Source: Methylocapsa palsarum
GTDB taxonomy: Bacteria > Pseudomonadota > Alphaproteobacteria > Rhizobiales > Beijerinckiaceae
Length of the DNA stretch: 64,000 nucleotides
Reading direction: 5' to 3'
Assembly: GCF_900114285.1 (NCBI RefSeq)
Contig: NZ_FOSN01000001.1
Coordinates: forward strand, 62,001 to 126,000
The notes under the pieces were generated by a model, which searched no databases, was not told the DNA's origin, and saw only the letters and a list, made by a program, of their open reading frames with translations. The position numbers were made by a program, and so were the translations under genes. This document shows positions 6,720-61,082 of this stretch, piece after piece; within the stretch, counting starts at the first letter, position 1, and every line of letters starts with the position of its first letter.

Positions 6720-7217
6720 ATGCCGCGCAAACCCCAATCGAAAATACGAGCCGCGCTGATCGCATTTTGTGGACTCTGCGCGCTTGCCGCCGGCGTCCGC
6801 GCCGCCGCGCTTGCGCCAGGCGACATTGTCGGCACATGGCGGATCGTGTCTTACGTGCATAAGGATGCGGCGGGGGAAACCAGCCTGCCGATGGGAGCGC
6901 ATCCCAACGGCGTTCTGATCGTCGGCGCCGACCGGCGCTGCACGCTCATCGTGGTCGCCGAGGGAAGGAAGGCGGCCCATGACGAGGAGGGCTACGCCGA
7001 ACTGGCGAAAACCATGATCGGCTATTCGGCGCCCTTTACCGATGAAGCCTATGGCGCCGCGCTGAAGGTCACCCTGCATCCCGACGTGTCTTGGAACGAG
7101 ACCATGACCGGCGCCAGCCTCGTCCGGTTCGTTTCGCTGGAGGACGGCAAACTCGTCGTGAGAAGCCCGCCGGGGCCAAACGGCGCCGCCGTGGCGAAGT
7201 TCGAGCGCGCGCGATAG
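6720..7217 (+). CDS. Lipocalin-like domain secreted protein
   Basis: This 165 aa protein has an N-terminal signal peptide followed by a domain that opens with DIVGTWRIVSY, the GxW-type start of small lipocalin-like proteins of the Lipocalin_5 type. Beta strands (HPNGVLIVGADRRCTLIVV; YGAALKVTLHP) follow. The function is unknown; such folds bind small hydrophobic molecules. The ATG at 6720 is preferred over 6693 because GAGGAAA precedes it by about eight bases. Its TAG stop is formed by the left end of a dispersed repeat. Confidence 0.6.
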   Translation: MPRKPQSKIRAALIAFCGLCALAAGVRAAALAPGDIVGTWRIVSYVHKDAAGETSLPMGAHPNGVLIVGADRRCTLIVVAEGRKAAHDEEGYAELAKTMIGYSAPFTDEAYGAALKVTLHPDVSWNETMTGASLVRFVSLEDGKLVVRSPPGPNGAAVAKFERAR

Positions 7218-7330
7218 AGCTCTTTCCGATCGCATGAAGTCATGCGATCGATAAGAAATCGCTCCAGAGTCAAAGGCTTGAGCATATTCTTGTCGATTGG
7301 ATCAATTCAATCCAATCGGAATATGCTCTA
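7215..7330 (+). repeat. TA-flanked MITE-like element, copy 1
   Basis: This 116 bp element begins TAGAGC and ends GCTCTA(G). It has two internal palindromes: GATCGCATGA paired with TCATGCGATC, and a longer one built on CGATTGGAT/ATCCAATCG. The outer 17 bases of both ends are related inverted repeats (about 13 of 17 match). TA stands at both outer ends. Its left TAG is the stop codon of the lipocalin-like gene. Confidence 0.85.
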
Positions 7331-7441
7331 GGACTTCCTTTCCCGCGCGGCGACATTTCCCGGCGGGCGCGATAGAATGGCCTTCCAACAGGCGCGCGAC
7401 AGGCGCGGCGCGCCGGCGGATCGAACCCGCGAGGAACCCTG

Positions 7442-8335
7442 GTGAGTCAAGACCCTTACGAACTTCTGGGCGTGTCCAAAAGCGCCTCCGCCGACGAACT
7501 TCGCAAAGCCTATCGCCAGTTGGCGAAAAAGCTGCATCCCGATCTTAATCCCGGCAATCGCGAGGCCGAGGAGAAGTTCAAGGCGGTCGGCTCGGCCTAC
7601 GATCTTTTGAGCGATCCGGAAAAGCGGGCCCGGTTCGACCGCGGCGAAATCGATGCGTCCGGCGCGGAGCGGCCGCCGCAGAATTACTACCGCGACTACG
7701 CCGGAGACAGCGCGGGCCGCTACCAGAACGACGCGGGCTACGCCGACATGATGGACGACGACATTCTGTCGGGTCTGTTCCGGCGCGCGCGGGCCAACGC
7801 CGGCGGCCGGGATCTGCGCTACAAACTGCCGGTCGAGTTTCTCGACGCGGTCAATGGCGCGACCAACCGGGTCGCCTTGCCGGACGGCTCGACGCTTGAC
7901 GTCGCCGTCCCCCCCGGCACGCGCGATGGCCAGATCCTGCGGCTTCGCGGCAAGGGCGAGCCCGGGATGGGCGGCGGCAAGCCCGGCGACGCGCTTGTCG
8001 AAATCGAGGTGAAGCCGCACCGCTTCTTCACCCGGGAGGGCGACGATATCCATCTTTCCCTGCCGATCGGCCTCGCCGAGGCCGTTCTCGGGGGCGAGGT
8101 GCGCGTGCCGACGACGACCGGCGCCGTCGCGATGAAAGTGCCCAAGGGCTCAAGCACGGGCGCGGTGCTTCGCCTCAAGGGCAAGGGCGCCGCGCGGCCG
8201 GACGGCGGGCGCGGCGACCAGTATGTCAATCTCAAAGTCGCGCTCCCGGACAAGATCGATCCGGAGCTTGAGGAATTCATGGCGAACTGGGCCGCGGGGA
8301 AAATTCAAAACCCGCGCGCGGGAATGGAGGCCTGA
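7442..8335 (+). CDS. cbpA: DnaJ C-terminal domain co-chaperone, CbpA type
   Basis: This 297 aa protein has an N-terminal J domain with HPD at residues 32-34, a short Gly/Tyr-containing linker, and a substrate-binding C-terminal region (from about residue 115, [18 protein letters not shown]). The Cys-rich zinc finger of DnaJ is absent, which defines the CbpA (type B) class. It stimulates DnaK ATPase and may bind curved DNA. The start is a GTG with GAGGA eight bases before. The CbpM-like gene follows without a gap. Confidence 0.88.
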
Positions 8336-8617
8336 ATGATCGACCGCGACCAATTCCTCGCCAGAACCCGGCTCGAGATCGAGACGCTCGAAATCTGGAT
8401 CAGGGACGAATGGCTGGTCCCGCATCGAAGTGAGGCCGGCGCGACCTTCTCCGACGCCGATGTCGCGCGCGCCCGGCTCATCAACGACCTTCGGCAAGAC
8501 CTCGGCGTCAACGATGAGGCGGTTCCGGTCGTTCTCCACCTGATCGACCAGATTCATGGCCTGCGGCGGACGCTGCGCGCCTTGCTGGACGAGGCCCGCG
8601 ATCAGACGAAGCGTTAG
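8336..8617 (+). CDS. cbpM: Chaperone modulator CbpM-like
   Basis: This 93 aa protein has an N-terminal MerR-like helix pattern (LEIWIRDEWLVPHRSEAGATFSDADVARARLI) and a helical C-terminus (LIDQIHGLRRTLRALLDE). CbpM binds the J domain of CbpA and blocks its DNA-binding and co-chaperone activity. The ATG directly abuts the TGA of cbpA (0 nt), so the two are surely co-translated. Confidence 0.85.
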   Translation: MIDRDQFLARTRLEIETLEIWIRDEWLVPHRSEAGATFSDADVARARLINDLRQDLGVNDEAVPVVLHLIDQIHGLRRTLRALLDEARDQTKR

Positions 8618-8708
8618 AAAACCCATCGGTGGCGGGATTTGGCCCTCCACGCGTTCCCTCCGCGCCCTCCGGACGTTACGGCGCGCCTTCCTCGCTCGGC
8701 GCGTTGGC

Positions 8709-8791
8709 CTTGGCGCATTGGTCTTGGCGCATGCGTTCGCGCCGCCCATATACTGCCAAGCATCATAAATTCCGAGGCCTCATAAATTCCG
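8709..8791 (+). repeat. Two short tandem duplications upstream of the pirin gene
   Basis: CTTGGCGCAT recurs at 8709-8718 and 8723-8732 (14 bp period). CATAAATTCCG recurs at 8764-8774 and 8781-8791 (17 bp period). The second copy of the latter is followed by the GGAG ribosome binding site of the pirin gene. Confidence 0.75.
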
Positions 8792-8800
8792 GAGACGCGA

Positions 8801-9643: not shown

Positions 9644-9757
9644 AGAGCGCTTTCCGATCGCATGAAGTCATGCGATCGATCAGAAACCGCTCCGGAGTCA
9701 AAGACTTGAGCATATTCTTATCGATTGGATTGATTCAATCCGATCGGAATATGCTCC
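9644..9757 (+). repeat. MITE-like element, copy 2 (tandem with copy 3)
   Basis: This complete copy begins AGAGCGCTTTCCGATCG and ends in ATATGCTC, with both internal palindromes intact. It directly abuts copy 3 in the same orientation, upstream of the cNMP/reductase fusion gene. Confidence 0.85.
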
Positions 9758-9871
9758 AGAGCGCTTTCCGATCTCATGAAGTCATGCGGTCGATCAGAAA
9801 TCGCTCCAGATTCAAAGGCTTGAGCATATTCTTGGGATCGGATTGATTCAATCCGATCAGAATATGCTCGA
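9758..9871 (+). repeat. MITE-like element, copy 3
   Basis: This second tandem copy has slightly diverged hairpin arms (ATCTCATGAAGTCATGCGG in place of the perfect palindrome). It ends about 20 bp before the ribosome binding site of the next gene, so it forms most of that gene's upstream region. Confidence 0.85.
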
Positions 9872-9899
9872 GCGGTCGCCACGTTCAGCCGGAGGCCCG

Positions 9900-11582: not shown

Positions 11583-11587
11583 CGCTG

Positions 11588-14164: not shown

Positions 14165-14180
14165 TAGAGCATATTCCGGC
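14165..14180 (-). repeat. Terminal fragment of the MITE-like element
   Basis: The bases TTAGAGCATATTCCG match the right terminus (inverted) of the dispersed element including its TA flank. The rest of the element is absent, so this is a solo end or deletion remnant in the spacer between convergent genes. Confidence 0.55.
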
Positions 14181-20067: not shown

Positions 20068-20232
20068 CCCGAACGACGGACCCGTTCGGCTCGCCGGGCC
20101 TGCGCCTCCCGATGCTCAGATCGGTAAAGCGGCGGCGGCGGTTCTCGCCGGCAAGCGGAGCACAGGGCGCTCCGCTGATTGAGCTCGGACGGATTTCGCT
20201 CCCCCATCAGAGACGGGAAAGGACCTCAGCTC

Positions 20233-20346
20233 GAGCATATTCCGATTGGATTGAATTCATCCCATCGACAAGAACATGCTCAAGTCTTTGACTCTGGAAC
20301 GGTTTCTGATCGATCGCATGACTCCATGCGATCGGAAAGCGCTCTA
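20233..20346 (-). repeat. MITE-like element, copy 4
   Basis: This complete copy is in minus orientation, beginning GAGCATATTCCGATTGG on the plus strand and ending in GCGCTCTA. The terminal CTA is the complement of the TAG stop codon of ftfL, so the element directly follows the coding end of that gene. Confidence 0.85.
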
Positions 20347-22020
20347 AAACAGGCCGACGACCTTACCCTGTTCGTCGAGGTCGATCTTGACCGCGGACGG
20401 CACCTTGGGCAGCCCAGGCATCGTCATGACGTCGCCGCAGACGAGAACGATGAATTCGGCGCCGGCGGCGAGGCGCACCTCGCGAATGTTGATCTCGTGG
20501 CCGGACGGCGCACCGCGAAGCTTCTGATCCGTCGAGAACGAATATTGCGTCTTTGCGATGCAGACCGGATAATGGCCGTAGCCGGCGTCCTGCAGCTTCT
20601 TGATCTGATTTCTGATCTTGAGGTCCGCCGTGACCTCGCTGGCTCCATAGAGCTTTTTCGCGATGGCCGTGACCTTGTCCCACAACGTCGCGTCGTCTTC
20701 GTAGACGAACCGGAAATCGCTGGGCGTCTTATCGATGAGATCGACGACCGTTCGCGCAAGGTCGACGGCGCCCTTGCCTCCTTCGGCCCAGTGGCGGCAC
20801 ACGACCACCGGCGCTTCATGATGCGCCAGTTTCTTTTTGAGCAGGTCGATTTCAGCGTCTGTATCGAACGTGAAATGATTGATCGCGACGATGCAGGGCA
20901 GCCCGAAATGGTTGCGGATATTGTTGACGTGGCGTTCGAGATTGGCGATTCCGTCCGCGAGCGCTGCAAGGTTTTCGGTGTTGAGTTCCTTGAGGTCGGC
21001 GCCGCCGTGATATTTGAGCGCCCGGATGGTCGCAACGATCACGGCCGCCTGCGGGCGCAGTCCGGATTTCCGGCATTTGATGTCGACGAACTTCTCCGCG
21101 CCGAGGTCGGCGCCAAATCCCGCCTCCGTGACGACATAGTCGGAGAGTTTCAGCGCGGTCTTGGTGGCGAGGACCGAGTTGCAGCCATGCGCAATGTTGG
21201 CGAACGGGCCGCCATGGATGAAGGCGGGATTGTTTTCGAGCGTTTGCACGAGATTGGGCTGCAAGGCGTTCTTCAAAAGCACGGCCATCGCGCCATGGGC
21301 GTGCAGATCCGCGGCGAGAATCGGCTTTTGCTCCCTGGTGTAGCCGACGACGATCTTGCCGAGTCTCTCCTTGAGATCCTTGATCGAGGTGGCGAGGCAG
21401 AAGATCGCCATGATTTCCGAGGCCACGACTATGTCGAAACCGTCCTGCCGCGGAAAGCCGTTGCCGACGCCGCCGAGGCCGACGACGATGTCCCGGAGCG
21501 CTCTGTCGTTCATATCCACGACGCGCTTCCAGGCGATCCGCCTGATGTCGAAACCGAGTTCGTTGCCGTGGTGAATGTGATTGTCGATCATCGCGGAGAG
21601 AAGATTATGCGCGAGGCCGATGGCGCCGAAGTCGCCTGTGAAATGAAGGTTGATGTCCTCCATCGGGACGACTTGCGCGTGGCCGCCGCCCGCCGCGCCG
21701 CCCTTCATCCCGAACACCGGACCAAGCGAAGGTTCGCGAAGACAGATCGAGGCTTTCTTGCCGATCAGATTCAGCGCGTCGCCGAGGCCGACGGTGGTCG
21801 TCGTTTTGCCCTCGCCCGCCGGAGTCGGGCTGATGGCGGTGACGAGGATGAGCTTGCCGTCCGGCCTGTCGGCGAGACTTTCGATGTAGTCCAGCGATAT
21901 CTTGGCCTTGTAGTGCCCGTAAGGCTCAAGATATTCATCGTCAATGCCCAGCTTTTCTTTCGCCAGCTGCGTAATCCGCTGCATGTTGGCTTGCTGGGCG
22001 ATTTCGATGTCCGTGGACAT
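20344..22020 (-). CDS. ftfL: Formate--tetrahydrofolate ligase
   Basis: This 558 aa protein is of family length, with the ATP-binding loop TPAGEGKTT (residues 66-74) and the long conserved block containing [21 protein letters not shown] (split here by description only). It joins formate to tetrahydrofolate at the cost of ATP. In serine-cycle methylotrophs this enzyme links formate from the H4MPT branch to assimilation. GGAGG precedes the ATG by six bases. It is the last gene of a minus-strand run gck-sgaA-hprA-ftfL. Its stop codon is supplied by a repeat element. Confidence 0.97.
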
Positions 22021-22080
22021 ACTTTTTTCCTCCGCTACAGATGAGTCTCAAGCCCGAATTCACGTTTCGGCGTCTGCGTC

Positions 22081-23022
22081 CTAGGCCTCGACGACGTTTT
22101 GCGGCTTGCCGGCGGCGAACGCCTCGACGTTGTCGATCAGTTGATCGGCGAGGATCTGCATCGCCTCTTTGCTGGCCCACGCGACATGCGGGGTGATGAT
22201 CAAATTCGGCAGCCGCAGATCGAGCAGTATGTTGCCTTGTTTGGGCGGCTCGACCGTGAGCACGTCGAATCCGGCTCCTCCGATCACGCCTTCGGTCAGG
22301 GCTTCGGCGAGCGCCGCCTCGTCAACGAGGCCGCCGCGGCCGGTGTTGATCAGGATCGCGTCCCGCTTCATCAGCCGCAGCTCGCGCGGGCCGATCATGT
22401 TTTTCGTTTCGGGCGTCAACGGCGCATGCAACGTGATGATGTCGCTTTCGCGCAGCAAGGTCTCGAGATCGACGAGGCCCGGCTGCGGGAATACGTCATA
22501 GGGCAGCACTTTCATGCCGAAGGCTTCGGCGATGCGCGCCACTCCCTTGCCGAGCGCGCCGTAGCCTACGATTCCCATCGTCGAACCGCGCATGTCGCGG
22601 ATCGGATGGTCGAAGAAACAGAACTGGTCGGCTTCCTGCCACTTGCCGGCGCGCACGTCGTCGCGATAGGCGACGATGTTGCGCCGTAACGCGAACGCGA
22701 GCGCAAAGACATGTTCGGGAACCGTGTTGAACGCGTAATTGCGGATGTTGGAGACGACAATGCCGCGCGCCTTGCAATAGGCCTTGTCGACGACATCCGT
22801 GCCGGTCGCGGCGACCGCGATCAATTTGAGATCCGGAAGCTGCGCGAGGGTCGCCTCGCGCATCGGCACCTTATTGATAATGGCGATGGTCGCGCCCTTC
22901 AGACGGTCGACGATCTCCCCGGGGGCGGTGACCTGATAGTCCTTGTAGGTGTTTGCAAAATTCGGCGCCCTCACGTTTGCGTCGAGGGTCGAGCGGTCGA
23001 GAAAAACAATCGAATGTTGCAC
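22081..23022 (-). CDS. hprA: Hydroxypyruvate reductase (NAD-dependent, serine cycle)
   Basis: This 313 aa D-2-hydroxyacid dehydrogenase has nucleotide motif GYGALG (153-158) and catalytic R229, E258 and H279. It reduces hydroxypyruvate to glycerate between SgaA and glycerate kinase. The GTG at 23022 is chosen because it gives the N-terminus MQHSIVFLDRSTLD, matching HprA of Methylobacterium; the open frame upstream reads as non-coding. It is 60 bp upstream of ftfL. Confidence 0.94.
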   Translation of the reverse strand: MQHSIVFLDRSTLDANVRAPNFANTYKDYQVTAPGEIVDRLKGATIAIINKVPMREATLAQLPDLKLIAVAATGTDVVDKAYCKARGIVVSNIRNYAFNTVPEHVFALAFALRRNIVAYRDDVRAGKWQEADQFCFFDHPIRDMRGSTMGIVGYGALGKGVARIAEAFGMKVLPYDVFPQPGLVDLETLLRESDIITLHAPLTPETKNMIGPRELRLMKRDAILINTGRGGLVDEAALAEALTEGVIGGAGFDVLTVEPPKQGNILLDLRLPNLIITPHVAWASKEAMQILADQLIDNVEAFAAGKPQNVVEA

Positions 23023-23079
23023 GGTGATGTCGCTCTCTGAACGTTTGCCGGGATGTTGTTCGCCGCCGCGCCTGCGAAG

Positions 23080-23105
23080 ATTTGCGAAAATTTGCGGTAA
23101 TTTGC
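23080..23105. promoter_or_regulatory. Helically phased ATTTGC triplet upstream of hprA
   Basis: ATTTGC begins at 23080, 23090 and 23100, exactly one helical turn apart, about 60-85 bp upstream of the hprA GTG. Such phasing suits cooperative binding of a regulator, but could be chance microduplication like others in this window. Confidence 0.35.
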
Positions 23106-23215
23106 AATGAGACGCCCCATGAGGCGCCGGTGTCGAGGCCGCGCGACGCCAGGATCTTTGTCCTGGCGCGCTCGTCGTCAATCATTTCGAACTCGCGCCT
23201 TTTGACCGGCGCCAT

Positions 23216-23267
23216 GTCTCGTTTAGGCAGGTCTCGATTGAGGAGGCCAAGTCTCGATTTAGCTCAG
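23216..23267. repeat. GTCTCG(A/T)TT direct repeats
   Basis: Three copies of GTCTCG followed by TTTAGG, ATTGAGG or ATTTAGC start at 23216, 23231 and 23251 in the sgaA-hprA spacer. Confidence 0.65.
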
Positions 23268-23397
23268 TCGCGCGAGCCGAAAAGGCTCTCGACACGGGCC
23301 TCGCCACGCGATTTTATGAGCGCTCGAGGCGCGCCAAAAATTTCCGGCGCGCCTTGAGGCTCTATTTCGCGAGCGTGCGTCCCGAATCTCGCCTGGC

Positions 23398-24594
23398 TCA
23401 GGCGGCGGACTTCTTTTCGCCGACCGCATTGGAGGCGCGGAAGTGAGTCTGCGCGGCGGCGACGCCGCTGCCGAGCTTCACATCGATTCCGTTGTCCGCC
23501 ATCGCCATCTCGGCGCCCGCGAGCGCCCCAAGAACCATGAGTTCGTTGAGATCGCCAAGGTGACCGATACGGAACACTTTGCCGGCCACCTGGGACAGAC
23601 CGGCCCCGAGGGAGATGTTATACCGGCGGTAGCCCGTGGAGATCACGTCCGCGCCGTTGATTCCCGGCGGCGTCAGGATCGCCGTCACCGTGTCGGAATC
23701 CCACTTTGCTTCCTTGGCGCAGGTCTTGAGGCCCCACGCCTTGACCGCAGCGCGCACGCCGCCGGCAAGGTGGTGATGGCGGGCGAACACGTTCTCGAGG
23801 CCTTCCTCGAACAGAATCTTGAGCGCTTCGCGCAGGCCGTAAAGCATCGGGAGCGCCGGGGTGTAGGGGAAATAACCGGTCGCGTTGGCCTTGGTCATGT
23901 CGTCGAAATCGAAATAGACGCGCTTCAGCTGCGCGGTCTTCGAGGCGGCGAGCGCCTTCGGGCTGGCGCAAACAAAGCCAAGTCCCGCCGGAAGCATAAG
24001 CCCCTTCTGCGATCCCGCGATGGCAAGGTCGACGCGCCATTCGTCGGCGCGGAAATCAAGGCTCGCGATCGAGCTGACGCCATCGACATAGAGCAGCGCG
24101 GGATGGCCCGCCGCGTCCATGGCCTTGCGGACCGCGCCGATGTCGCTGGTCACGCCGGTGGCGGTCTCGTTGTGGACCGCGAGGACGGCCTTGATCTGAT
24201 GCGATTTGTCGGCGCGCAGGATCTCTTCGATCTTGTCGGGCTTGACGCCGGTGCCCCATTCTTCCTCGAGAACCTGAACGTCGAGGCCGTGCCGCTGGGC
24301 GAGATCAATCCAGAGGTGGCTGAACTGGCCGAAACGGGAGGCGAGCACCTTGTCGCCGGGCGAGAGGGTGTTGGTCAGCGCCGATTCCCAGGCGCCTGTG
24401 CCCGAGGAAGGAAAGATAAAAACCTGTCCGTCGGTCGTCTTGAAGACTTTCTTCAATTCCTGAAATAAAGGCAGAGTCAGTTCGGGAAATTTGGGGGACC
24501 GATGGTCCTCCATCGGCACCACCATGGCCCGCGTAACGCGGTCGGGGACATTGGTCGGTCCGGGGACAAAAAGAAAGTGTCGGCCCGCCATCAT
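23398..24594 (-). CDS. sgaA: Serine--glyoxylate aminotransferase
   Basis: This 398 aa fold-type I aminotransferase opens with FLFVPGPTNVPDRV, the typical start of the class V serine/alanine-glyoxylate group. The PLP lysine is K197 in AIAGSQKGL. It converts serine and glyoxylate to hydroxypyruvate and glycine in the serine cycle. Two consecutive ATGs follow a GGAGAATGA ribosome site. It lies between gck and hprA, all minus strand. Confidence 0.96.
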   Translation of the reverse strand: MMAGRHFLFVPGPTNVPDRVTRAMVVPMEDHRSPKFPELTLPLFQELKKVFKTTDGQVFIFPSSGTGAWESALTNTLSPGDKVLASRFGQFSHLWIDLAQRHGLDVQVLEEEWGTGVKPDKIEEILRADKSHQIKAVLAVHNETATGVTSDIGAVRKAMDAAGHPALLYVDGVSSIASLDFRADEWRVDLAIAGSQKGLMLPAGLGFVCASPKALAASKTAQLKRVYFDFDDMTKANATGYFPYTPALPMLYGLREALKILFEEGLENVFARHHHLAGGVRAAVKAWGLKTCAKEAKWDSDTVTAILTPPGINGADVISTGYRRYNISLGAGLSQVAGKVFRIGHLGDLNELMVLGALAGAEMAMADNGIDVKLGSGVAAAQTHFRASNAVGEKKSAA

Positions 24595-24739
24595 TCATTC
24601 TCCATCTTCGATAGCCATTTATTCGTTATCCACGATCACACTGACTAGCATAAGTCAATGCAGCGAGTCATCCGCCGGGGCCTCGCCCCGCGCAGGAATT
24701 TTAAGTCTGCCGCCGCCGGGTTCAGCGCCGGCGCGGCGG

Positions 24740-26005
24740 TCAGCGCTGGACCAGAATCGCGCGAAAATCGTTGACGTTCGTTCGCGTCGGACCCGTCACG
24801 ACGAGATCGCCGATCGCCGAAAAGAACCCATACCCATCGTTATCGGCGAGCTTCGCCTTGGCCTTGATTCCCTTCGCTTCGGCGCGGGCCAGACTGTCCG
24901 GGGCAAGGAGAGCCCCCGCATTGTCCTCGGTGCCGTCAATCCCGTCGGTGTCTCCGGCGAAGGCATGGACGCCCGGATGGCCGTCGAGGGCGACCCCGAG
25001 GGCCAGCAGAAACTCGGCGTTTCGGCCGCCGCGTCCCGTTCCGCGGACGGTGACGGTCGTCTCGCCGCCGGAGATCAGCACGCAAGGCGGCGCGATCGGC
25101 TGGCCGAAATCGTAGCTCTGGCGGCCGATCGCCGCATGAACAAGGGCGACGTCGCGCGCCTCGCCCTCGATGTCGCTGGCGAGAATGAGGGACGCCACGC
25201 CCGCGCGCCGCGCCGCCGCAGCGGCCGCTTCGAGCGACATTTGCGGCGTCGCAATGATGACGTTCTGGACCCCGGCGAGACGGGGATCGCCGGGCTTCAG
25301 GGTCTCGGACTGCGGCGATTCGAGATGAGCGCGCACATGCGCCGGCGCCCCGATCCCGTATTTCTCCAAAATCGCCAGCGCGTCGGAGGACGTCGTCGGG
25401 TCGGCCACCGTCGGACCCGAGGCGATGACGCAGGGATCGTCGCCCGGAACGTCGGAGATCAGCAGCGCGGCGACCCGGGCGGGAGCCGCCGCCGCCGCCA
25501 GCTTGCCGCCCTTGATCGCAGACAGGTGCTTGCGCACGCAGTTCATTTCGGAGATCGTCGCGCCGCTCTTCAGCAAAGCCTTGTTGATCCCCTGCTTGTC
25601 GGCCAGCGTCACGGCGGCCGCGGGCAACGCCAGCAAGGCGGAGCCGCCGCCCGAGATCAGGCAGAGAACCAGATCGTCCGGGGTCAGCCCCTGCACCATG
25701 GCGTAGATGCGCTCCGCCGCCTCGCGGCCCGCGGTATCCGGCACCGGATGCCCGGCCTCGACGATTTCGATGCGGCTGCACGGCGCGCCATGGCCGTAAC
25801 GGGTGACCACCAGACCTTCGAGCGGCCCGTCCCAATGATCCTCGACCGCCTTCGCCATCGCGCCCGCGGCCTTGCCGGCGCCGACGACAATGGTGCGCCC
25901 AAGCGGCTTTGGGGGCAGATGCGCGGGAAGACAAACGGCGGGCGAGGCCGCGCCGACCGCCGCGCTGAACATATCAAGGAGCAATTGCCGGGGATCAGAA
26001 ATCAT
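24740..26005 (-). CDS. gck: Glycerate 2-kinase (MOFRL type)
   Basis: This 421 aa member of the GckA/TtuD glycerate kinase family has a conserved ISGGGSALL segment (about residue 116), an N-terminal VVGAGKAAGAMA motif and a C-terminal MOFRL domain ending in DNDGYGFFSAIGDLVVTGPTRTNVND. It phosphorylates glycerate to 2-phosphoglycerate, which feeds Ppc through enolase. It is the first gene of the minus-strand serine-cycle run and divergent from mtkA, so the spacer at 26006-26703 should hold both promoters. Confidence 0.94.
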   Translation of the reverse strand: MISDPRQLLLDMFSAAVGAASPAVCLPAHLPPKPLGRTIVVGAGKAAGAMAKAVEDHWDGPLEGLVVTRYGHGAPCSRIEIVEAGHPVPDTAGREAAERIYAMVQGLTPDDLVLCLISGGGSALLALPAAAVTLADKQGINKALLKSGATISEMNCVRKHLSAIKGGKLAAAAAPARVAALLISDVPGDDPCVIASGPTVADPTTSSDALAILEKYGIGAPAHVRAHLESPQSETLKPGDPRLAGVQNVIIATPQMSLEAAAAAARRAGVASLILASDIEGEARDVALVHAAIGRQSYDFGQPIAPPCVLISGGETTVTVRGTGRGGRNAEFLLALGVALDGHPGVHAFAGDTDGIDGTEDNAGALLAPDSLARAEAKGIKAKAKLADNDGYGFFSAIGDLVVTGPTRTNVNDFRAILVQR

Positions 26006-26391
26006 GAGGATTTTTCCGCCTCATCTGGGCGCGGTGAGCAGGGATCGCCGAACGGGGCGGCGGAATTCGGGTGATGCGTCAACGAAAGGACGGCGTAGAA
26101 GAAAAATTTATCCCGGTCTGCGGCGTCCGGCAAAATGGAACCGCGCGCCGGCCTCGAAAAACGACAATCTTGTTTTTTTCCGCGCGTTGCCGTTATAACC
26201 GCGAATAATCGCGTTTCAACCGTTTTTCTCGCCGCTTCGTCAGGAAGGAGTCAGGCTCGGCGCCGACGCGGCGCGGGTCGACGGCAGACCGATAACGGCG
26301 AAGTCAATGGCGGCGAACTCGATGGCGGCGAAACGGCGCGCGCTCTTCATAGACCAAGCCGTCTCTCTAGTCATAGCTGTTCCTTTGATCC

Positions 26392-26437
26392 AAGCCGTTC
26401 TTCCTATCCAAGACGTTCCTCTCATCCAAACCTTTGC
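26392..26437. repeat. ATCCAAG-type 17-19 bp imperfect tandem repeat
   Basis: Units of the form ATCCAAGCCGTTCTTCCT, ATCCAAGACGTTCCTCTC and ATCCAAACCTTTGC follow one another; a weaker related unit (GACCAAGCCGTC) lies about 40 bp upstream. They sit in the mtkA upstream region. Confidence 0.7.
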
Positions 26438-26456
26438 AGATCATTGGTCGGATCCG

Positions 26457-26488
26457 TTGCAAGTCGCATTTGTTGCAAGTCGCATTTC
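26457..26488. repeat. 16 bp tandem duplication upstream of mtkA
   Basis: TTGCAAGTCGCATTT occurs at 26457-26471 and again at 26473-26487 with a 16 bp period and no mismatch in 15 bases. The lack of mismatches suggests a recent duplication. Confidence 0.85.
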
Positions 26489-26690
26489 AAGTGTCTATGC
26501 AAGCCGTCAACGGATGAGTTGATGCGTCCTGGAATTTTAAATAAGGTTTTCGGAAGCGCTCCGGATCCCGGTCGTCCCGCGCAAAACACTCGGACAACCG
26601 AACCAAGGGTTCAACAACAAGCCTGGGCGCGTCCGGCGAAATTTTAGTGAAAGTTTGAGTTCGCTTCTTGCGGAGCGGACAACAGAAGTC

Positions 26691-26703
26691 GGAGGAGGGG
26701 AAG
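26691..26703 (+). promoter_or_regulatory. Strong Shine-Dalgarno that decides the mtkA start
   Basis: GGAGGAGGGG at 26691-26700 lies eight bases (first GGAGG to codon) before the CTG at 26704. The only other in-frame start candidate between the preceding stop (TGA at 26656) and this point is a TTG at 26668 without a ribosome site, so the CTG is preferred. Confidence 0.7.
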
Positions 26704-27894
26704 CTGGACATTCACGAGTATCAAGCCAAGGAAATCTTGGGCAATTTCGGCGTGGCGACGCCACGCGGAGCGATCGCTTACAGTCCCGACCAGGCGGTGT
26801 ATTGCGCCACCGAACTCGGCGGATGGCATTGGGCGGTCAAGGCGCAGATCCATTCCGGCGGCCGCGGCAAGGCCGGCGGCGTCAAGCTCTGCAAGACCTA
26901 CAACGAGGTCCGCGCCGCCGCGACCGAACTTCTCGGCAAGACTCTCGTCACCAATCAGACGGGCCCTGAGGGCAAGGTCGTTCAGCGCGTCTATATCGAA
27001 GCCGCCGAACCCTTCGAGCGTGAAATCTATCTCGGCTTCGTGCTCGACCGGAAAGTCGAGCGCGTGCGCATCATCGCGTCCCGTTTCGGCGGAATGGAGA
27101 TCGAGGAAATCGCCAAGACCCACCCGGAAGAAATTCTCCAGGTCGTGGTCGAGCCGGCGGTCGGCCTGCAGGCCTTCGAGGCGCGCGAACTCGCTTTCGG
27201 CCTCGGCCTCAACCTGAAACAGGTCAGCCGCGCGGTCTCGACGATTCTTGGCTGTTACCGGGCTTTCCGCGATCTCGACGCGACCATGGTCGAGATCAAC
27301 CCCCTCGTCATCACCAAGGATGACCGCGTGCTGGCGCTCGACGCCAAGATGTCGTTCGACGACAACGCGCTGTTCCGGCGCGGCGCCGTCTCCGACATGC
27401 GCGACCATTCGCAGGAAGACCCCCGCGAGGTCCAGGCCGCCGAGCACAATCTCAATTATGTCGGCCTCGACGGCAACATCGGCTGCATCGTGAACGGCGC
27501 CGGCCTCGCCATGGCGACGATGGACATGATCAAATACGCGGGCGGCAATCCGGCCAACTTCCTCGACGTCGGCGGCGGCGCCTCGCCCGAACGCGTCGCG
27601 GCGGCGTTCCGCCTCGTGCTGTCGGACCGCAACGTGCGGGCGATCCTCGTCAATGTGTTCGCCGGCATCAACAGGTGCGACTGGGTCGCCGAAGGCGTCG
27701 TCAAGGCCTGCCGGGAGATCAACGTCGACGTGCCCCTGATCGTGCGCCTGTCGGGCACCAATTATGAGGCCGGCCGCGACATCATCAAGAAGAGCGGTTT
27801 GCCGATCATTTCCGCCGACACGCTCGCCGAGGCGGCGAAGGCGGCGGTGAATGCGGCCGAGACTGCGCCGCCACGCAAATCCGGGGCGGCCTGA
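26704..27894 (+). CDS. mtkA: Malate--CoA ligase (malate thiokinase) beta subunit, CTG start
   Basis: This 396 aa protein has an N-terminal ATP-grasp domain beginning [12 protein letters not shown], as in MtkA and SucC, and a C-terminal CoA-ligase domain with [18 protein letters not shown] and GGGASPERV. With MtkB it activates malate to malyl-CoA. The family N-terminus (M-D-x-H-E-Y-Q) aligns with a CTG codon at 26704 that has a near-perfect ribosome site; no ATG or GTG is available upstream. A GTG 13 codons further in would delete the conserved start. CTG initiation is therefore inferred and is unusual. Confidence 0.93.
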
Positions 27895-27957
27895 GCGCCC
27901 CGGAAGACTGGCGTTATTGAACTGAACCCGCGACGAGGAGAGCCCGGCGACGGCCAA

Positions 27958-28015
27958 GCCTTTGATTGTCAGCCTTTGATTGCCGGCCTTTGATCATCGC
28001 GTCTTTGATCATCTG
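27958..28015. repeat. Four 14-15 bp tandem units between mtkA and mtkB
   Basis: GCCTTTGAT starts at 27958, 27972 and 27986, and a variant GTCTTTGAT at 28001 (periods 14, 14, 15). The first two units end TGTCA/TGCCG; the last two read CATCGC/CATCTG. The array sits in a 233 bp spacer. Confidence 0.85.
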
Positions 28016-28127
28016 GCCGCAGTCAGCATGCATTGGCGCCGGCGCCCCTCGTTTTTGTTTTGGCCCATTTTCTGGTTGCGAACATAGCTTCCGCTACGCC
28101 TGAAAATGCTCTCCGCGAGTAGCCGAC

Positions 28128-29024
28128 ATGAGCATTCTAATCGATGAAAAAAGCCGGGTCCTGATTCAGGGCTTCACCGGCGACAAAGGCACTTTCCACG
28201 CCAAGGACATGATCTCCGCCGGCACCAACGTCGTCGGCGGCGTCACCCCTGGCAAGGGCGGCCAGACGCACCTTGGCCTGCCCGTCTTCAACACGGTGAA
28301 GGAAGCCGTCCGCGCGACCGACGCCAACGTCAGCATCACCTTCGTCGCGCCGGCCTATTGCGCGGACGCGATCATGGAGGCGGCCGACGCCGGGATCGGC
28401 CTCGTCTGCTCGATCACCGACGGCATTCCCGCGCAGGACATGATGCGGGTCAAGCGCTACCTCCTGCGCTATCAGAAAGGGCGCCGCACCCTGATGGTCG
28501 GGCCAAATTGCGCCGGCATCATCAGCCCCGGCAAGGCCATGCTCGGCATCATGCCGACCAATATCTACATGCGGGGCTCGGTCGGCATCGTTTCCCGGTC
28601 CGGGACCCTTGGCTATGAGGCCGCCGCCCAGATGAAAGACCTTGGCATCGGCGTCTCGACCAGCGTCGGCATCGGCGGCGATCCGATCAACGGCAGTTCC
28701 TTCCTCGACCATCTCATCCTCTTCGAACAGGATCCCGAAACGAAGGCGGTCATGATGATCGGCGAGATCGGCGGCCCCCAGGAAGCCGAAGCGGCCGCCT
28801 GGATCAAGGAAAACATGACGAAGCCGGTCGTCGGCTACGTCGCCGGACTGACCGCTCCGAAAGGCCGCCGCATGGGCCACGCCGGCGCGATCATCTCGGC
28901 GACCGGCGACAGCGCCGCCGAAAAGTCCGAAATCATGAAGTCCTACGGATTGACCGTAGCGCCAAGTCCAAGCGAACTCGGCGCGACCATGGCCAAGGTC
29001 CTGGCCCAGGCCGGTGCCCACTAG
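28128..29024 (+). CDS. mtkB: Malate--CoA ligase alpha subunit
   Basis: This 298 aa protein is homologous to SucD. It has CoA-binding GFTGDKGTFHAKDM near the N-terminus, GPNCAGIISPG, and the phosphohistidine loop RRMGHAGAI with His at about residue 251. It partners MtkA. It is separated from mtkA by 233 bp containing a tandem repeat, whereas these subunit genes are usually adjacent. The TAG stop is formed by repeat copy 5. Confidence 0.96.
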   Translation: MSILIDEKSRVLIQGFTGDKGTFHAKDMISAGTNVVGGVTPGKGGQTHLGLPVFNTVKEAVRATDANVSITFVAPAYCADAIMEAADAGIGLVCSITDGIPAQDMMRVKRYLLRYQKGRRTLMVGPNCAGIISPGKAMLGIMPTNIYMRGSVGIVSRSGTLGYEAAAQMKDLGIGVSTSVGIGGDPINGSSFLDHLILFEQDPETKAVMMIGEIGGPQEAEAAAWIKENMTKPVVGYVAGLTAPKGRRMGHAGAIISATGDSAAEKSEIMKSYGLTVAPSPSELGATMAKVLAQAGAH

Positions 29025-29135
29025 AGCGCTTTCCGATCGCATGAAGTCTGCGATCGATCAGAAATCGCTCCAGCATCAAATGCTTGAGCATATTTTTCTC
29101 GATTAGATTGATTCAATCCCATCGGAATATGCTCT
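29022..29135 (+). repeat. MITE-like element, copy 5
   Basis: Begins with the TAG stop of mtkB (TAGAGCGCTTTCCGATCGC) and ends ATATGCTCTC. The first hairpin has lost two bases in its loop (ATGAAGTCTGCGATCG). It lies between mtkB and ppc, within the probable operon. Confidence 0.85.
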
Positions 29136-29339
29136 CGTCGAAGCGAAAACGAACTTTGCGCGGGGCGCCCAAAGCTCCCCGCCCAATCTTTCGAAAGATC
29201 ATCCAAGCGAACGATCATCCAAGTCCGCTTGGATTTCCGCTGTCGGCGCATACAAGGCGCCGGACCGATCCATGGATCACACCTCGATGAGGGCCGACAT
29301 GACGAACGCAGCGGAACATGGCCGGAGCGAGCGCCGCTT

Positions 29340-32114: not shown

Positions 32115-32157
32115 CAGGCCGCGGACGCCGCAAGATACAACGAGAGGGAAAACGGCC

Positions 32158-33135
32158 ATGAGTTTCACCATTATCGAACAGGCGACTCCTCGCCTTCACC
32201 GCTCCGAACTGGCGGTTCCGGGCTCCGCTCCGGCGATGTTCGAAAAGGCGGCAAAATCTGCCGCGGACGTCGTCTTTCTCGACGTCGAGGACGCCGTCGC
32301 TCCCGACGACAAGGAGCAGGCGCGCAAGAACATCATCGCCGGCCTGAACGAGATCGACTGGGGCGCGAAGACCATGATGGTGCGCATCAATGGTCTCGAC
32401 ACCCATTTCATGTACCGCGACGTCGTCGACATCGTCGAAGCCTGCCCGCGTCTCGACATGATCCTCATTCCGAAAGTCGGCGTGCCGGCCGACGTCTACG
32501 CCATCGACATGCTGGTGACGCAGATCGAGGCGGCCAAGAAGCGCGACAAGCGGATCGGCTTCGAAGTGCTGATCGAGACCGCTCTCGGCATGGCCAATGT
32601 CGAGGCCATCGCCCAATCGAGCCCGCGCCTCGAGGCGATGTCATTCGGCGTCGCCGATTACGCCGCCTCGACGCGAGCCCGCACCACGGTGATCGGCGGC
32701 GTGAACCCCGATTACGGCGTGCTGACCGACAAGGACGCCAACGGCGACCGCAATTACTACTGGGCCGACCCCTGGCACGCGGCGCAGACCCGCATGATGG
32801 TCGCCTGCCGCGCCTATGGCCTGCGCCCGATTGACGGCCCCTTCGGCGATTTCAACGATCCGGACGCCTTCATCGCCGCCGCCAACCGCGTCGCCGTGCT
32901 TGGCTATGAAGGAAAATGGGCGATCCATCCGTCCCAGATCGAGCTTTCCAACAAGGTGTTCACGCCGTCCGACGCCGAAGTCACCAAGGCGAAGCGGATC
33001 GTCGAGGCGATGGCCGACGCCGCCAAGGCCGGCAAGGGCGCCGTCTCGCTCGACGGCCGCCTGATCGACATCGCCAGCATCCGGATGGCCGAGGCTCTCC
33101 TGAAAAAGGCGGCGTCGATCGGCGTCGCCGCTTAA
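32158..33135 (+). CDS. mcl: L-malyl-CoA lyase
   Basis: This 325 aa member of the CitE-like aldolase family has the N-terminal RSELAVPGSAPAMFEKAAKS, the metal-binding acidic motif FLDVEDAVAPDDK and FEVLIETALGMANVE. It cleaves malyl-CoA to glyoxylate and acetyl-CoA, the last step of the serine cycle. It follows ppc on the same strand and is closed by a strong stem-loop at 33151-33177. Confidence 0.96.
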   Translation: MSFTIIEQATPRLHRSELAVPGSAPAMFEKAAKSAADVVFLDVEDAVAPDDKEQARKNIIAGLNEIDWGAKTMMVRINGLDTHFMYRDVVDIVEACPRLDMILIPKVGVPADVYAIDMLVTQIEAAKKRDKRIGFEVLIETALGMANVEAIAQSSPRLEAMSFGVADYAASTRARTTVIGGVNPDYGVLTDKDANGDRNYYWADPWHAAQTRMMVACRAYGLRPIDGPFGDFNDPDAFIAAANRVAVLGYEGKWAIHPSQIELSNKVFTPSDAEVTKAKRIVEAMADAAKAGKGAVSLDGRLIDIASIRMAEALLKKAASIGVAA

Positions 33136-33150
33136 GCTCCTCCTGCTCTC

Positions 33151-40108: not shown

Positions 40109-40249
40109 GTGCGCCCGCGGCGACCAATCGCCGGTGCTGTCCGGTCAACCGGTCCGATCCCATCGGGCGCTGACAACAAGGATAAGCCTTCGCATCTGCC
40201 GATCTTCTTCGGCAGTAATATGGAATGGAAACCTCCAGGGGATTCAATC

Positions 40250-40759
40250 ATGGCCAAGATAAACAGGCTCCTCGTCGGCGAATCGCTGGTCGGGGAAGGT
40301 AACGAAGTTGCTCATATCGACCTTCTCATCGGACCGCGCGGCAGCGCCGCCGAGACGGCGTTCGCGAATGCGCTCGTCAACAACAAGGACGGGTTCACGT
40401 CGCTCCTCGCCGTGGTCGCTCCGAACCTGCTCGCCAAGCCGGCGACCGTCATGTTCAACAAGGTGACGATCAAGAACGCCACCCAGGCGGTCCAGATGTT
40501 CGGTCCGGCCCAGCGCGGCGTCGCCAAGGCCGTTGCGGACAGCCTCGCCGACGGCACGATCCCGCTGCGCGAAGCCGACAACGTCTTCATCTGCGTCGGC
40601 GTCTTCATCCATTGGGAAGCCAAGGACGACCAGAAGATCCAGGACTACAATTATCAGGCGACCAAAGAGGCGATCTCCCGCGCCATCAACGGCGACCCGA
40701 CCCCCAGCACCGTGGTTGCGCAGCGCAACACCGCGAAACATCCTTTCGCGCCGAACTAG
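40250..40759 (+). CDS. fae: Formaldehyde-activating enzyme
   Basis: This 169 aa protein has the Fae signature [23 protein letters not shown] (split across residues 10-33), including catalytic H22. Fae condenses formaldehyde with H4MPT to methylene-H4MPT and is the entry point of the pathway. The ATG at 40250 follows AGGGGA. The 140 bp spacer upstream suggests its own promoter in addition to operon transcription. The TAG stop belongs to repeat copy 6, and a strong terminator lies at 40945. Confidence 0.97.
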
Positions 40760-40872
40760 AGCTCTTTCCGATCGCATGAAGTCATGCGATCGATCAGAAA
40801 TCGCTCCAGAATCAAAGATTTGAGCATATTCTTGTCGATTGGACTGATTCAATCCAATCGGAATATGCTCTC
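40757..40872 (+). repeat. MITE-like element, copy 6
   Basis: A full copy starting with the TAG stop of fae (TAGAGCTCTTTCCGATCGC) and ending GGAATATGCTCTC. Both palindromes are intact. It lies between fae and the terminator. Confidence 0.85.
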
Positions 40873-57001: not shown

Positions 57002-57114
57002 GGAGCATAGTCCGATTGGAGTGAATCATTTCAATCGACAAGACTATGCTCAAGCATTTGACTCTGGAGCGATTTCTGATCGACCACATGACTTCATGCG
57101 ATCGGAAAGCGCTC
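57002..57114 (-). repeat. MITE-like element, copy 7 (tandem with copy 8)
   Basis: A minus-orientation copy, plus-strand GAGCATAGTCCGATTGG to GGAAAGCGCTC, with some substitutions in the long palindrome (CATAGTCC in place of CATATTCC). It is fused head-to-tail to copy 8 behind folK. Confidence 0.8.
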
Positions 57115-57227
57115 AAGCATAGTCCGATCGGATCGAATCAATCCAATCGACAAGACTATGCTCAAGCTTATGACTCTGGAGCGATTTCTCATCGATCACA
57201 TGACAACATGCGATCGGAAAGCGCTCA
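57115..57227 (-). repeat. MITE-like element, copy 8
   Basis: This second tandem copy in minus orientation shares the CATAGTCC variant with copy 7, so the pair probably arose by duplication in place rather than by two insertions. Confidence 0.8.
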
Positions 57228-57268
57228 AGTTTCAATCGGACTGGCGCCCGCTCATGATCCGGACCGTT

Positions 57269-57706
57269 TCAGCGCACGCTTCCGACCGGTTGCCGGTCGA
57301 TGCCGGCGACCCCGTTTTGCGTCCTGATCCTGTTGGAAATCTGCTCGACCTTCTGCCGGTTTTGCTGCGCGAACAATTCCTTGTTGACGCAGGCATAGAG
57401 GACCGAATAGCGCGCGTAACGCGCGTCTTCCGCGCGCCTCGCGCAATTGCGCTTCGCCGGCGGCTGCAAGGCTGTCCATTTGTTGGAAATCAGCCCGGCG
57501 AGGCGGTTTTGGTGCTGCTGACAAACACTCATTCCCGCCCCTCCGTCAGCAGCCGAAGGCCACGCCGCCTTGCACAACGCATCGACATCGAAATGGGGAA
57601 AATCATCTCCGGCGTTCAACGACACGGGCACGTCGGGGCCCTCGAAAATCGTGTAGGCGTTTGCCTGGAACGGGATCAACGCCAAAAGGAGTGCAAACCG
57701 TTTCAT
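57269..57706 (-). CDS. Hypothetical secreted protein
   Basis: This 145 aa product has a signal peptide (MKRFALLLALIPFQANA) and a mature part with AALCK-type cysteines (DALCKAAWPS, MSVCQQHQNRL, RNCARRAE, LYACVNKEL), four in all, spaced as for two disulfides. No family is recognised. It is followed (in its 5' direction) by AT-rich sequence suited to a promoter. Confidence 0.6.
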   Translation of the reverse strand: MKRFALLLALIPFQANAYTIFEGPDVPVSLNAGDDFPHFDVDALCKAAWPSAADGGAGMSVCQQHQNRLAGLISNKWTALQPPAKRNCARRAEDARYARYSVLYACVNKELFAQQNRQKVEQISNRIRTQNGVAGIDRQPVGSVR

Positions 57707-57991
57707 CTTTCACCGATTCAAATTTTTAAAAACCGAAATCACGAGCATCAATGCGAAGGCAGATGTGGAAATGCTTCGCTTTATTGCTCTGGATTCATGA
57801 ACGCTTATTTAAGCGCACCTGTAGCTCAAGCCGGAACAGCGAGCGATTTCGGCACAATGTCTGATCTTGACGAGAAACCGCGCTGGATCTTCTTCAGCAT
57901 CGCAGTCCCGCCTTGCCTGAAGCTTGGCCGCCTGGACGCGAAGAAATCGGATTTGGCCAGAAAAGCCGCGCCGCGTCAGGCGGTCAGCGCT
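57707..57991. other. Spacer with a doubtful small frame
   Basis: A plus-strand frame from an ATG at 57797 (65 codons) ends in the TAG of repeat copy 9. It lacks a convincing ribosome site and resembles no family, so I leave it unannotated as a gene. The first 80 bp are AT-rich and probably carry the promoter of the minus-strand secreted protein. Confidence 0.4.
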
Positions 57992-58107
57992 TAGAGCGCT
58001 TTCCGATCGCATGAAATCATGCGATCGATCAGAAATCGCTCTAGAGTCAAAAGTTTGAGTATATTCTTGTCGATTGGATTGATTCAATCCAATCGGAATA
58101 TGCTCTA
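57992..58107 (+). repeat. MITE-like element, copy 9
   Basis: A full copy, TAGAGCGCTTTCCGATCGC to GGAATATGCTCTA, with TA at both outer ends. The right-hand CTA is the complement of the stop codon of the DoxX gene (58105-58107). Confidence 0.85.
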
Positions 58108-58497
58108 GCGTTTGGCTCTCGCGTCCAGCGACAAGGCGCCGGGACCCTGCGCCGCAAGAGTGAGGAGCCCGCCCGCGATCGCGAGATTTTTCATGAAACT
58201 GATCATTTGCTGCTGGTCGGCAAAATGCGAATGAAAAACAACGCCCGCAGCGAGCGTGAATCCCGCCAGCAACAGGGCCGCCAGACGGGCGCGCCAGCCA
58301 AACGCCACAGCCAGTCCGCCCAGCAGTTCCGTCGCGATGACAAGGGGCAGCAGAACGCCAGGCACGCCAGACGCCACCATGAATCCCGCGGTGGCGCCAT
58401 AGCTGGTGATTTTGCTCGCCCCGCTCAGGACGAAAATCAGCGCCAGCAGGATGCGTCCGACGAGGGCGACGACGGGTTTAAGCTCGATTGACGTCAC
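58105..58497 (-). CDS. DoxX family membrane protein
   Basis: This 130 aa membrane protein has four hydrophobic segments and the DoxX signature LVGRILLALIFVLSGASKI at the N-terminus, with VIATELLGGLAVAFGW and HFADQQQMISFMKNLAIAGGLL later. The family includes quinone-linked or redox membrane proteins; the precise role is unknown. Its TAG stop is provided by repeat copy 9. Confidence 0.87.
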   Translation of the reverse strand: MTSIELKPVVALVGRILLALIFVLSGASKITSYGATAGFMVASGVPGVLLPLVIATELLGGLAVAFGWRARLAALLLAGFTLAAGVVFHSHFADQQQMISFMKNLAIAGGLLTLAAQGPGALSLDARAKR

Positions 58498-58536
58498 GGA
58501 TTGCGCTCCTGTCGAGATCGTTGCTGACGAGGTTTT

Positions 58537-58620
58537 TAGAGCATATTCCGATCGGATTGAATCAATCCAATGAACAACACTCTGGAGCGATTTCTGATCG
58601 ATCGCATGAAAGCGCTCTAG
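58537..58620 (-). repeat. MITE-like element, copy 10 (internally deleted)
   Basis: A shortened 84 bp copy in minus orientation. Both termini with TA flanks are kept (TAGAGCATATTCCG to AAAGCGCTCTA), but about 30 bp are lost: part of the long palindrome's second arm and one arm of the short hairpin. Confidence 0.75.
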
Positions 58621-58735
58621 TCAATCAATTCGTGATGGGCCGCCGACGGTTGCAAACGCCGCCACCATAGCGCTTTGCAAGCGCCGCGCAAAGCGGGCGC
58701 CGTCCGCGGTTCCGGCGGACCGGCTCGGCGCGATG

Positions 58736-60103: not shown

Positions 60104-60441
60104 GGGGCCTCCTGCGCCGCGCCCGCCTGATACCACGTTCGCCCGGCGGGAAGAACGGGGAAACGCCGGAGGCCGATTTCGCTTTCGGCCGGAATAAAAC
60201 GATGTTTATTTGTCAGCGCCAATCTAGAAAACCTGTCTGCTTCATTATATTTAAATGAGAATAAGTCTAAATCATTTATATTGCCAAATTCATCTTGATC
60301 AATATGCTTTTGTTCGAAGACAGACCAGCGCTTTGCCGCACGGCCCGGGGGCGAAGAGCGTCGCCCCGGCGGCAAAGCTTTCCGCAGCCCTGACATCAGG
60401 GAAGCGTCTGCGCGGCGCAGTTGCGATCAGAGGAGTTCAGC
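60104..60441. other. AT-rich divergent promoter region
   Basis: This 340 bp region lies between the kinase start and an oppositely oriented hypothetical gene. The part at about 60210-60320 is markedly AT-rich against the GC-rich background and probably contains promoters. No gene or RNA is recognised. Confidence 0.45.
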
Positions 60442-60969
60442 ATGGCCCAGCACGCAAATCCTGTAATGCAGCGGACGCCGCCCGTCGCCATTCACGCCGA
60501 CGCGCCCGCCGAAAAGCTTTTCATCACCCAATACCGCTGCTGGACCGCGGGATATTCGTTGTGCAACAGAACCTGCTTGAATCTAGCCCGGGTCGTCTTG
60601 CAAAGTTACGTCACGCCTTGCTGCGTCAATACGCTATATGACGCATTCCATTTCTTCGCGTTCACGATGAACACGCAAGCGCAAAAGCCGATCGAATGGC
60701 GCCCTGACGCCTGCCGTTACCTTTGTCGCGACGAATATCTGGCGTTGCGCCTCATTTCGTCGTCGCAGGCCGGGGACTTCAACGAAGAAGTATCCGCGGC
60801 GACGGACCTTCTCGGGATGGATGAGATCCATCTGCTGGTGACGGCGAGCCGCTTGCTCGCGCACGCCCTCAAAGTCAGAGGGTTCGTGTTCGGGCCGGCG
60901 GCCGCTCCTGAAGACGAGCGATCGACATCGACGCAAGACGCTCCGCCAAGCCGGCTGACTCTGCATTAG
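60442..60969 (+). CDS. Hypothetical cysteine-containing protein
   Basis: This 175 aa protein has no signal peptide. The first half has six cysteines (YRCWTAGYSLCNRTCLN, SYVTPCCVN, DACRYLC) around an aromatic-rich stretch, and the second half is a helical region (EYLALRLISSSQAGDFNEEV; LLVTASRLLAHALKV). I recognise no family. GAGGAG precedes the ATG by seven bases. It lies between, and opposite to, the kinase and its regulator, and its TAG stop is formed by repeat copy 11. An acquired gene is possible. Confidence 0.6.
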   Translation: MAQHANPVMQRTPPVAIHADAPAEKLFITQYRCWTAGYSLCNRTCLNLARVVLQSYVTPCCVNTLYDAFHFFAFTMNTQAQKPIEWRPDACRYLCRDEYLALRLISSSQAGDFNEEVSAATDLLGMDEIHLLVTASRLLAHALKVRGFVFGPAAAPEDERSTSTQDAPPSRLTLH

Positions 60970-61082
60970 AGCGCTTTCCGATCGCATGAAGTCATGCGAT
61001 CGATCAGAAATCGCTCCAGAGTCAAAAGCTTGAGCATAGTCTTGTCGATTGGATCGATTCACTCCAATCGGAATATGCTCCA
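60967..61082 (+). repeat. MITE-like element, copy 11
   Basis: A full copy, beginning TAGAGCGCTTTCCGATCGC with the stop codon of the preceding gene and ending GGAATATGCTCCA. It lies between convergent genes, 20 bp from the response-regulator stop. Confidence 0.85.

Follow-up and report, generated by a model that had tools for sequence, protein, structure and literature searches.

The palindromic repeat of about 112 bp that is scattered through the stretch of DNA analysed here (the window: 64,000 nucleotides, positions 62001-126000 of contig C46, in a genome of 4.1 Mb and 78 contigs from a bacterium related to methanotrophs) is very probably a non-autonomous MITE of the IS630 type. This identity, already proposed in a preliminary description of the sequence, is supported by a clean empty site in a sister genome, by YTA|TAR flanks, by IS630 elements with TA|GAGC ends and by the lack of a Y1 transposase in this genome. 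As in other MITEs, the repeat is short, multicopy and without a transposase gene. An IS630-type MITE is a known kind of element; the family itself, its habit of occupying stop codons, its covarying double hairpin and its relatives across the order were not found in the literature searched, which included the available portions of PMC2267715, PMC3163539, PMC10800456, PMC2573895, PMC2873474, PMC10969869, PMC3049150, PMC2680597 and PMC2266754. We thus describe a large lineage-specific repeat family whose tie to a defined group of IS630 elements is made by an empty site and by the match of the termini.

Copies and architecture of the element

All copies previously listed for the window, ten full, one internally deleted and one end fragment, were recovered by an nhmmer window scan together with reading of the ends (Table 1), and the TA noted on both sides of the copies at 7215, 57992 and 58538 is correct. 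The left-end motif matches 19 times at up to three mismatches, inner arm ends counted in, versus 0.92 expected, and the right-end motif 10 times versus 0.12. The suggested wide spread in the genome was borne out by a whole-genome search, in which arm 1 gave 176 matches with at most three mismatches (92 + 84) and the same pattern read backwards, as a control, gave none. The open frame of the element matches at least 150 places in the genome (306 first-look candidates, 150 of them scored); a long exact pattern searched across the genome contigs had no match. No Rfam family reached its gathering score within the window, and one element submitted to Rfam yielded only five sub-threshold miRNA matches.

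Table 1. Copies of the repeat in the window
Positions	Strand	Copy	Identified by
7215..7330	+	Full copy, TA on both sides	nhmmer and flank reading
9644..9757	+	Full copy, first half of head-to-tail dimer, junction spacer CA	
9758..9870	+	Full copy, second half of the 9644/9758 dimer	
14165..14178	+	End fragment, TAGAGCATATTCCG alone	
20231..20346	-	Full copy; TTAG end is the stop of formate-THF ligase ORF 20344-22020(-)	
29022..29137	+	Full copy; CTAG end is the stop of succinyl/malate-CoA-ligase-like ORF 28128-29024(+)	
40757..40872	+	Full copy; CTAG end is the stop of Fae ORF 40109-40759(+)	
57002..57115	-	Full copy in head-to-tail dimer, junction without TA	
57116..57228	-	Full copy, partner of the 57002 copy in the dimer	
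57992..58108	+	Full copy, TA on both sides; TTAG is the stop of ORF 57158-57994(+), without Pfam match	
58536..58620	-	Internally deleted copy, 79-bp core, TA on both sides	
60967..61082	+	Full copy; left TTAG is the stop of ORF 60421-60969(+), without Pfam match	

Together with copies from 30 loci and 20 stretches, those of the window formed a sample of 105, of which 85 extend from one end to the other (the deleted 58538 copy counted) and 20 are partial. The core, GAGC...GCTC, measures 112 bp in 62/85 copies. Own copies average 95% identity to the consensus (79 copies of 108-114 bp), which has a GC content of 46% compared with 64% in the window. When read directly, the ends are indeed imperfect inverted repeats with 13/17 identity, and what had been taken for two internal palindromes are two hairpins that form nearly the whole element, a 48-nt and a 49-nt hairpin joined by a linker of ~15 nt. 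According to the alignments, the outer ends of the hairpins are clean and their inner sides carry a bulge of 4-5 nt; folding of one element gave z = -7.4. Several partial copies resemble hairpin deletions in which one outer end has been retained.

Copies are also found as head-to-tail dimers and in one trimer, with junction spacers of zero or CA. Zero-spacer tandem copies would not be expected from simple TA insertion and in this respect speak against the MITE reading. BIMEs, too, have hairpins in pairs, lie at gene ends and occur in tandem, and the copies described here resemble them in all three respects. Nevertheless, a REP/BIME-like nature, with mobilisation by a Y1 (RAYT) transposase, is extremely improbable: such a transposase, which may have been lost, is absent from 12/15 genus genomes including this one (3/15 have one), and from all six of the copy-richest genus genomes (this one and five with at least 14 matches listed). 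The REP/RAYT explanation was rejected on the absence of a Y1 transposase from this and the other copy-rich genomes; to our knowledge, TA duplication is not a feature of REPs either. The trimer (G000:C47:205692-206025, L082) consists of three head-to-tail copies with a 111-bp period and junctions without TA.

Compensatory changes maintain pairing in both hairpins. The rows compared were drawn from 31 relatives, with window copies added. For arm 1, 24/31 relatives were used (excluded were four with identical or near-identical arms and three with arms of 47 nt), and for arm 2 17/31 (broken, absent, divergent and near-duplicate arms excluded), so that the proportions of paired cells, 92.9% for arm 1 (25 distinct rows) and 91.2% for arm 2 (18 rows), are biased upward. 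Changes on both sides of a pair involve 36 cells in arm 1 versus 10 in shuffles, and 35 versus 9.5 in arm 2. The covariation scores, which are inflated by relatedness among the rows, were reached by 0/500 shuffles for each arm, and the pair types by 10/500 for arm 1 and 29/500 for arm 2. Pairing could be kept by selection on RNA, by selection on transposition or by hairpin-templated repair. Covariation of both hairpins between species would also suit a functional palindromic RNA or DNA element (a 3' end structure, terminator or mRNA stabiliser) that is selected at gene ends and whose mobility is secondary or extinct. We regard this as unlikely; hairpin-templated repair, rather than selection, can preserve palindromes as well, and further evidence on both sides comes from the sister genomes and the gene ends (see below).

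Target site and empty site

TA dinucleotides border the left end in 52/85 copies, the right end in 48/85 and both ends in 34/85; minus the 15 tandem copies (n = 70), the left TA is present in 49, the right in 47, both in 34 and neither in 8. The left TA is preceded by C or T in 47/52 cases (p 1e-12; 43% at all window TAs), and the right TA is followed by A or G in 46/48 (p 2e-15; 42% at all window TAs), from which the target site is deduced to be YTAR. Seventy of the 170 flank dinucleotides differ from TA. Among these, 63 are one substitution away from TA, and 42 have changed at the element-adjacent base with the other base kept. The flanks were probably TA originally and decayed faster than the element itself: retention of TA on both sides is lower than predicted from the ~5% divergence of the element, which counts against the MITE reading.

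Two sister genomes, G002 and G014, are 97.4-98.5% identical across aligned pieces. Thirteen sites with full or partial copies, from stretches of the G002 contigs C153, C109 and C80, were compared with their G014 counterparts: nine are shared (one of these copies being shortened in G014), one shows a clean presence/absence difference, and three are located in rearranged or unanchored stretches. The clean case provides the single-TA empty site that the preliminary description had named as a check of the MITE reading. Here, G014 has CTAG and G002 has CTA-111 bp-TAA, within ...ACTC TA-111 bp-TA ACGTAATC in G002 and ...AGTC TA GCGTAATC in G014; a separate ~48 bp indel and a few base changes are found nearby. 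Duplication of the TA target is thus seen in this one empty site and in the YTA|TAR flanks. That there is a single clean empty site, and that 9/13 sister sites are shared, counts against the MITE reading. The shared sites would likewise favour a functional element, against which the empty site, though the only clean one, can be held.

When the two flanks of each of the 85 own copies were joined and compared with other sequence, the one cross-species match was to lnt of G011, which is without the element; at ~72% DNA identity the junction is unreadable to base level. The remaining spanning matches proved to be self-matches or due to tandem copies. In pieces >250 bp, the window is syntenic with five relatives solely over 20.3-33.1 kb, so most window copies have no examinable empty site. 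This sole stretch syntenic with five genus genomes (window 20300-33140) contains the genes for formate-THF ligase and the succinyl/malate-CoA-ligase-like protein.

In G014, an IS of ~0.87 kb with the Pfam domains DUF4096 and DDE_Tnp_1, belonging to the IS4/IS5 family, is inserted in the outer-end CTAG of a shared copy (L176, C3:3630000-3649999, at about 6265-7135). The available parts of PMC3163539 and PMC2266754 report YTAR also as the target of IS711, another IS that duplicates TA; the target by itself is therefore no proof of IS630. The same target class, and the position of the G014 IS exactly in a copy-end CTAG, would be consistent with a mobiliser of the IS5 family that duplicates TA at YTAR as IS711 does. 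Yet the ends of the G014 IS (GGTCGTAG) are unrelated, making this a case of an IS landing beside the element, and the MITE ends match those of IS630 elements, which leaves an IS5-family mobiliser very improbable.

IS630 elements with similar ends

Transposases with the PF13358 domain are encoded in all 15 genus genomes. In 7/30 genus IS630 loci (L098, L099, L104, L122, L101, L113 and L127, the last three being copies of one G001 IS) the transposase is enclosed in a 1,048-1,056-bp unit with the ends TAGAGC...GCTCTA. The suggestion that an IS630 with the same termini should be found thus held for TA|GAGC...GCTC|TA, but the IS of this genome differs from the MITE past GAGC. This IS (L099) is an apparently intact IS630 of 1,048 bp that is flanked by YTA at either end and encodes a DDE_3 domain, and the match of its end, GAGCGGGATGTT..., to the MITE does not extend beyond GAGC. 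In addition, C65 carries a remnant with one TAGAGC-type end, whose protein is 72% identical to the transposase of G001.

Relatives of the G001 transposase were detected at 1e-30 in 69/249 order genomes. TAGAGC-type ends are present in 20/30 order-wide IS630 loci listed (19 TAGAGC, one TAGAGT), a count that is no blind survey because ends were first sought as TAGAGC...GCTCTA pairs; two of the 5' boundaries are doubtful. Loci without recognised ends make up 10/30 in the order and 23/30 in the genus, some of them truncated or at contig edges. The IS ends GAGCATTTTCCGATCA (L195) and GAGCAGTATCCGACC (L113) approach the MITE ends GAGCATATTCCGATTG and GAGCGCTTTCCGATCG; an IS with ends near-identical to those of the MITE was not found among the IS630 loci of genus and order.

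An end profile was built from 26 ISs, all but one from other genomes; after the two doubtful 5' boundaries and, at both ends, one duplicate IS had been dropped, it comprised 25 3' ends and 23 5' ends. The MITE ends were scored against this profile at positions 5-16 alone. The fractions of background k-mers with scores equalling those of the two MITE ends were 1.7e-3 and 1.7e-4 for the 3' profile and 3e-4 and 9e-5 for the 5' profile, and the MITE ends fall inside the range obtained for true IS ends when these are left out one by one. TA|GAGC and the next, CCGAT-like positions are common to the MITE ends and a group of IS630 elements in the order. The fit to the end profile supports the family of the driver. 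The divergence of the own IS counts against the MITE reading, and the search did not yield the individual driver IS. The transposase of an IS630 with ends of this kind would have moved the element in trans; in this genome, the divergent element and the remnant would represent this type of IS630, and lineages may each have amplified their own subfamilies.

Copies at gene ends

At 39/100 TA-type ends, the TAG formed at the junction closes an ORF 100 or more codons long, versus 4 and 8 in the other two frames (Fisher p 4e-12); in terms of copies, 34/66 with a TA end close such an ORF. The remaining YTAG sites of this sequence (n = 567), used as a control, close such an ORF in 16% of cases, and in 14% in a second frame. 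The window genes ending in an element TAG include those for formate-THF ligase, Fae and the succinyl/malate-CoA-ligase-like protein.

Both ends of the element start with G, so that a TAG or TAA hit by an insertion is left as TAG. Stop-codon insertions may survive for this reason, TA plus G rebuilding a TAG stop, and insertions elsewhere in genes would mostly be purged by selection. We infer that stop-codon insertions are tolerated rather than targeted. A transposon hitch-hiker can thus occupy the stop codons of C1-metabolism genes with the protein unchanged.

That copies very often begin on a stop codon would also be expected of a functional element selected at gene ends. However, in five relatives the ends of the formate-THF ligase and CoA-ligase-like genes have their own stop and are without the element; at the ligase end, G004 and G013 instead show another type of single hairpin, and in the other of these two spacers G011 has a half-hairpin. 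Furthermore, in the one stretch scanned for intrinsic terminators, 0/8 terminator-like sites coincide with the element.

Distribution and relation to known repeats

At 1e-6, the MITE has matches in 14/60 genomes (this one counted) and 3/46 genera; among the other genomes of the same genus, 11/14 have matches. In a 112-column copy tree, which has little resolution, own copies mostly cluster apart from those of other species, with one falling among the latter. In three loci of G019 (L039, L225 and L226), arm 1 is similar and the second palindrome unrelated (GGAATCCGTCCTGTTT...), which suggests arm swapping.

The pattern TAGAGC-N92-118-GCTCTA is present in 181/249 order genomes, but the reversed control, which matches other sequence, exceeds it in most genomes, and no enrichment is claimed. 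Of the 20 pattern loci listed, nine (L254, L256, L259, L260, L262, L265, L269, L270 and L272) have two-hairpin folds, as read from the folds, with different arm sequences; the remaining ones are mostly chance matches. L254 has a similar linker, and in it an arm of the MITE type is joined to a GAGCATGATC...GATCATGCTC arm. The bipartite loci and the mosaic L254 make an order-wide mosaic superfamily plausible.

For RUP of Streptococcus pneumoniae, 107 bp in length, the accessible part of PMC3049150 describes ends like those of IS630-Spn1. RUP and the Correia elements of Neisseria resemble the MITE in their size of about 100-150 bp, inverted ends and high copy number, and RUP also in being AT-rich relative to its own genome. 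The MITE differs from both in sequence and host, in its two complete hairpins and in ends that rebuild a TAG stop. Correia elements, too, have been linked to IS630. RIME elements are about 100 bp long and contain two palindromes. In Rhizobium/Sinorhizobium they are intergenic, occur dozens of times per genome and have a conserved secondary structure, as stated in the available part of PMC2573895. They belong to the same order as the MITE and are likewise intergenic and structured, a likeness by description only; the bipartite TAGAGC elements elsewhere in the order make homology to RIME plausible. Bru-RS1 and Bru-RS2 of Brucella are palindromic repeats of 103-106 bp that are entered by the YTAR-targeting IS711, and the portions of the three papers at hand mention no link to IS630 (PMC10800456, PMC3163539, PMC2266754). 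Here the parallel, again by description only and as far as PMC3163539 was available, is an IS4/IS5-family element at a copy end. Full-text literature searches, with subscription literature mostly outside their scope, returned no printed link of RIME or Bru-RS to IS630 and, in the parts of the texts available, neither the end motif nor repeats of Methylocella/Methylobacterium.

A tentative but serious possibility is that the palindromic intergenic repeats of Hyphomicrobiales (the MITE and probably also RIME and Bru-RS) are one bipartite, IS630-driven superfamily whose arms have been swapped and which diverges by compensatory change. A shared YTA|G end would let such repeats colonise stop codons with the protein unchanged, and YTAR ends would explain homing of the IS711 type. 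If the order-wide link is true, it would provide a mobiliser, and an origin open to testing, for repeats that have long stood as orphans in rhizobia and Brucella.

Copies within coding genes

With the duplicated TA, the 112-bp element amounts to 114 bp, and the consensus is fully open in one frame of one strand. Requiring at least 25-30 codons on each side of the copy, we found 20 distinct spanning frames in the 105 copies and three in 26 further or selected loci (38 copies); in the genome-wide set, long open frames crossing the element are mostly one-sided. A Pfam scan of all 23 spanning frames identified two that are supported as genes, lnt and an MFS transporter. In-frame insertion is the exception rather than the rule. 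This distinguishes the MITE from the Rickettsia palindromic elements (RPE) of about 150 bp, which, according to the part of PMC10969869 available, are often intragenic and in frame in coding genes. YkuD (L010) and a HicB-like protein (L233) have a Pfam match downstream only and may start past the element. In the MFS transporter (G000:C37:203493-203606, L030), a 38-residue insert lies inside the MFS_1 match. In lnt (G000:C37:118312-118426, L073), likewise, 38 residues are added; the LNT_N and CN_hydrolase matches both lie past this insert, and the Lnt of G011, which does not have the peptide, can be aligned with the sequence before and after it.
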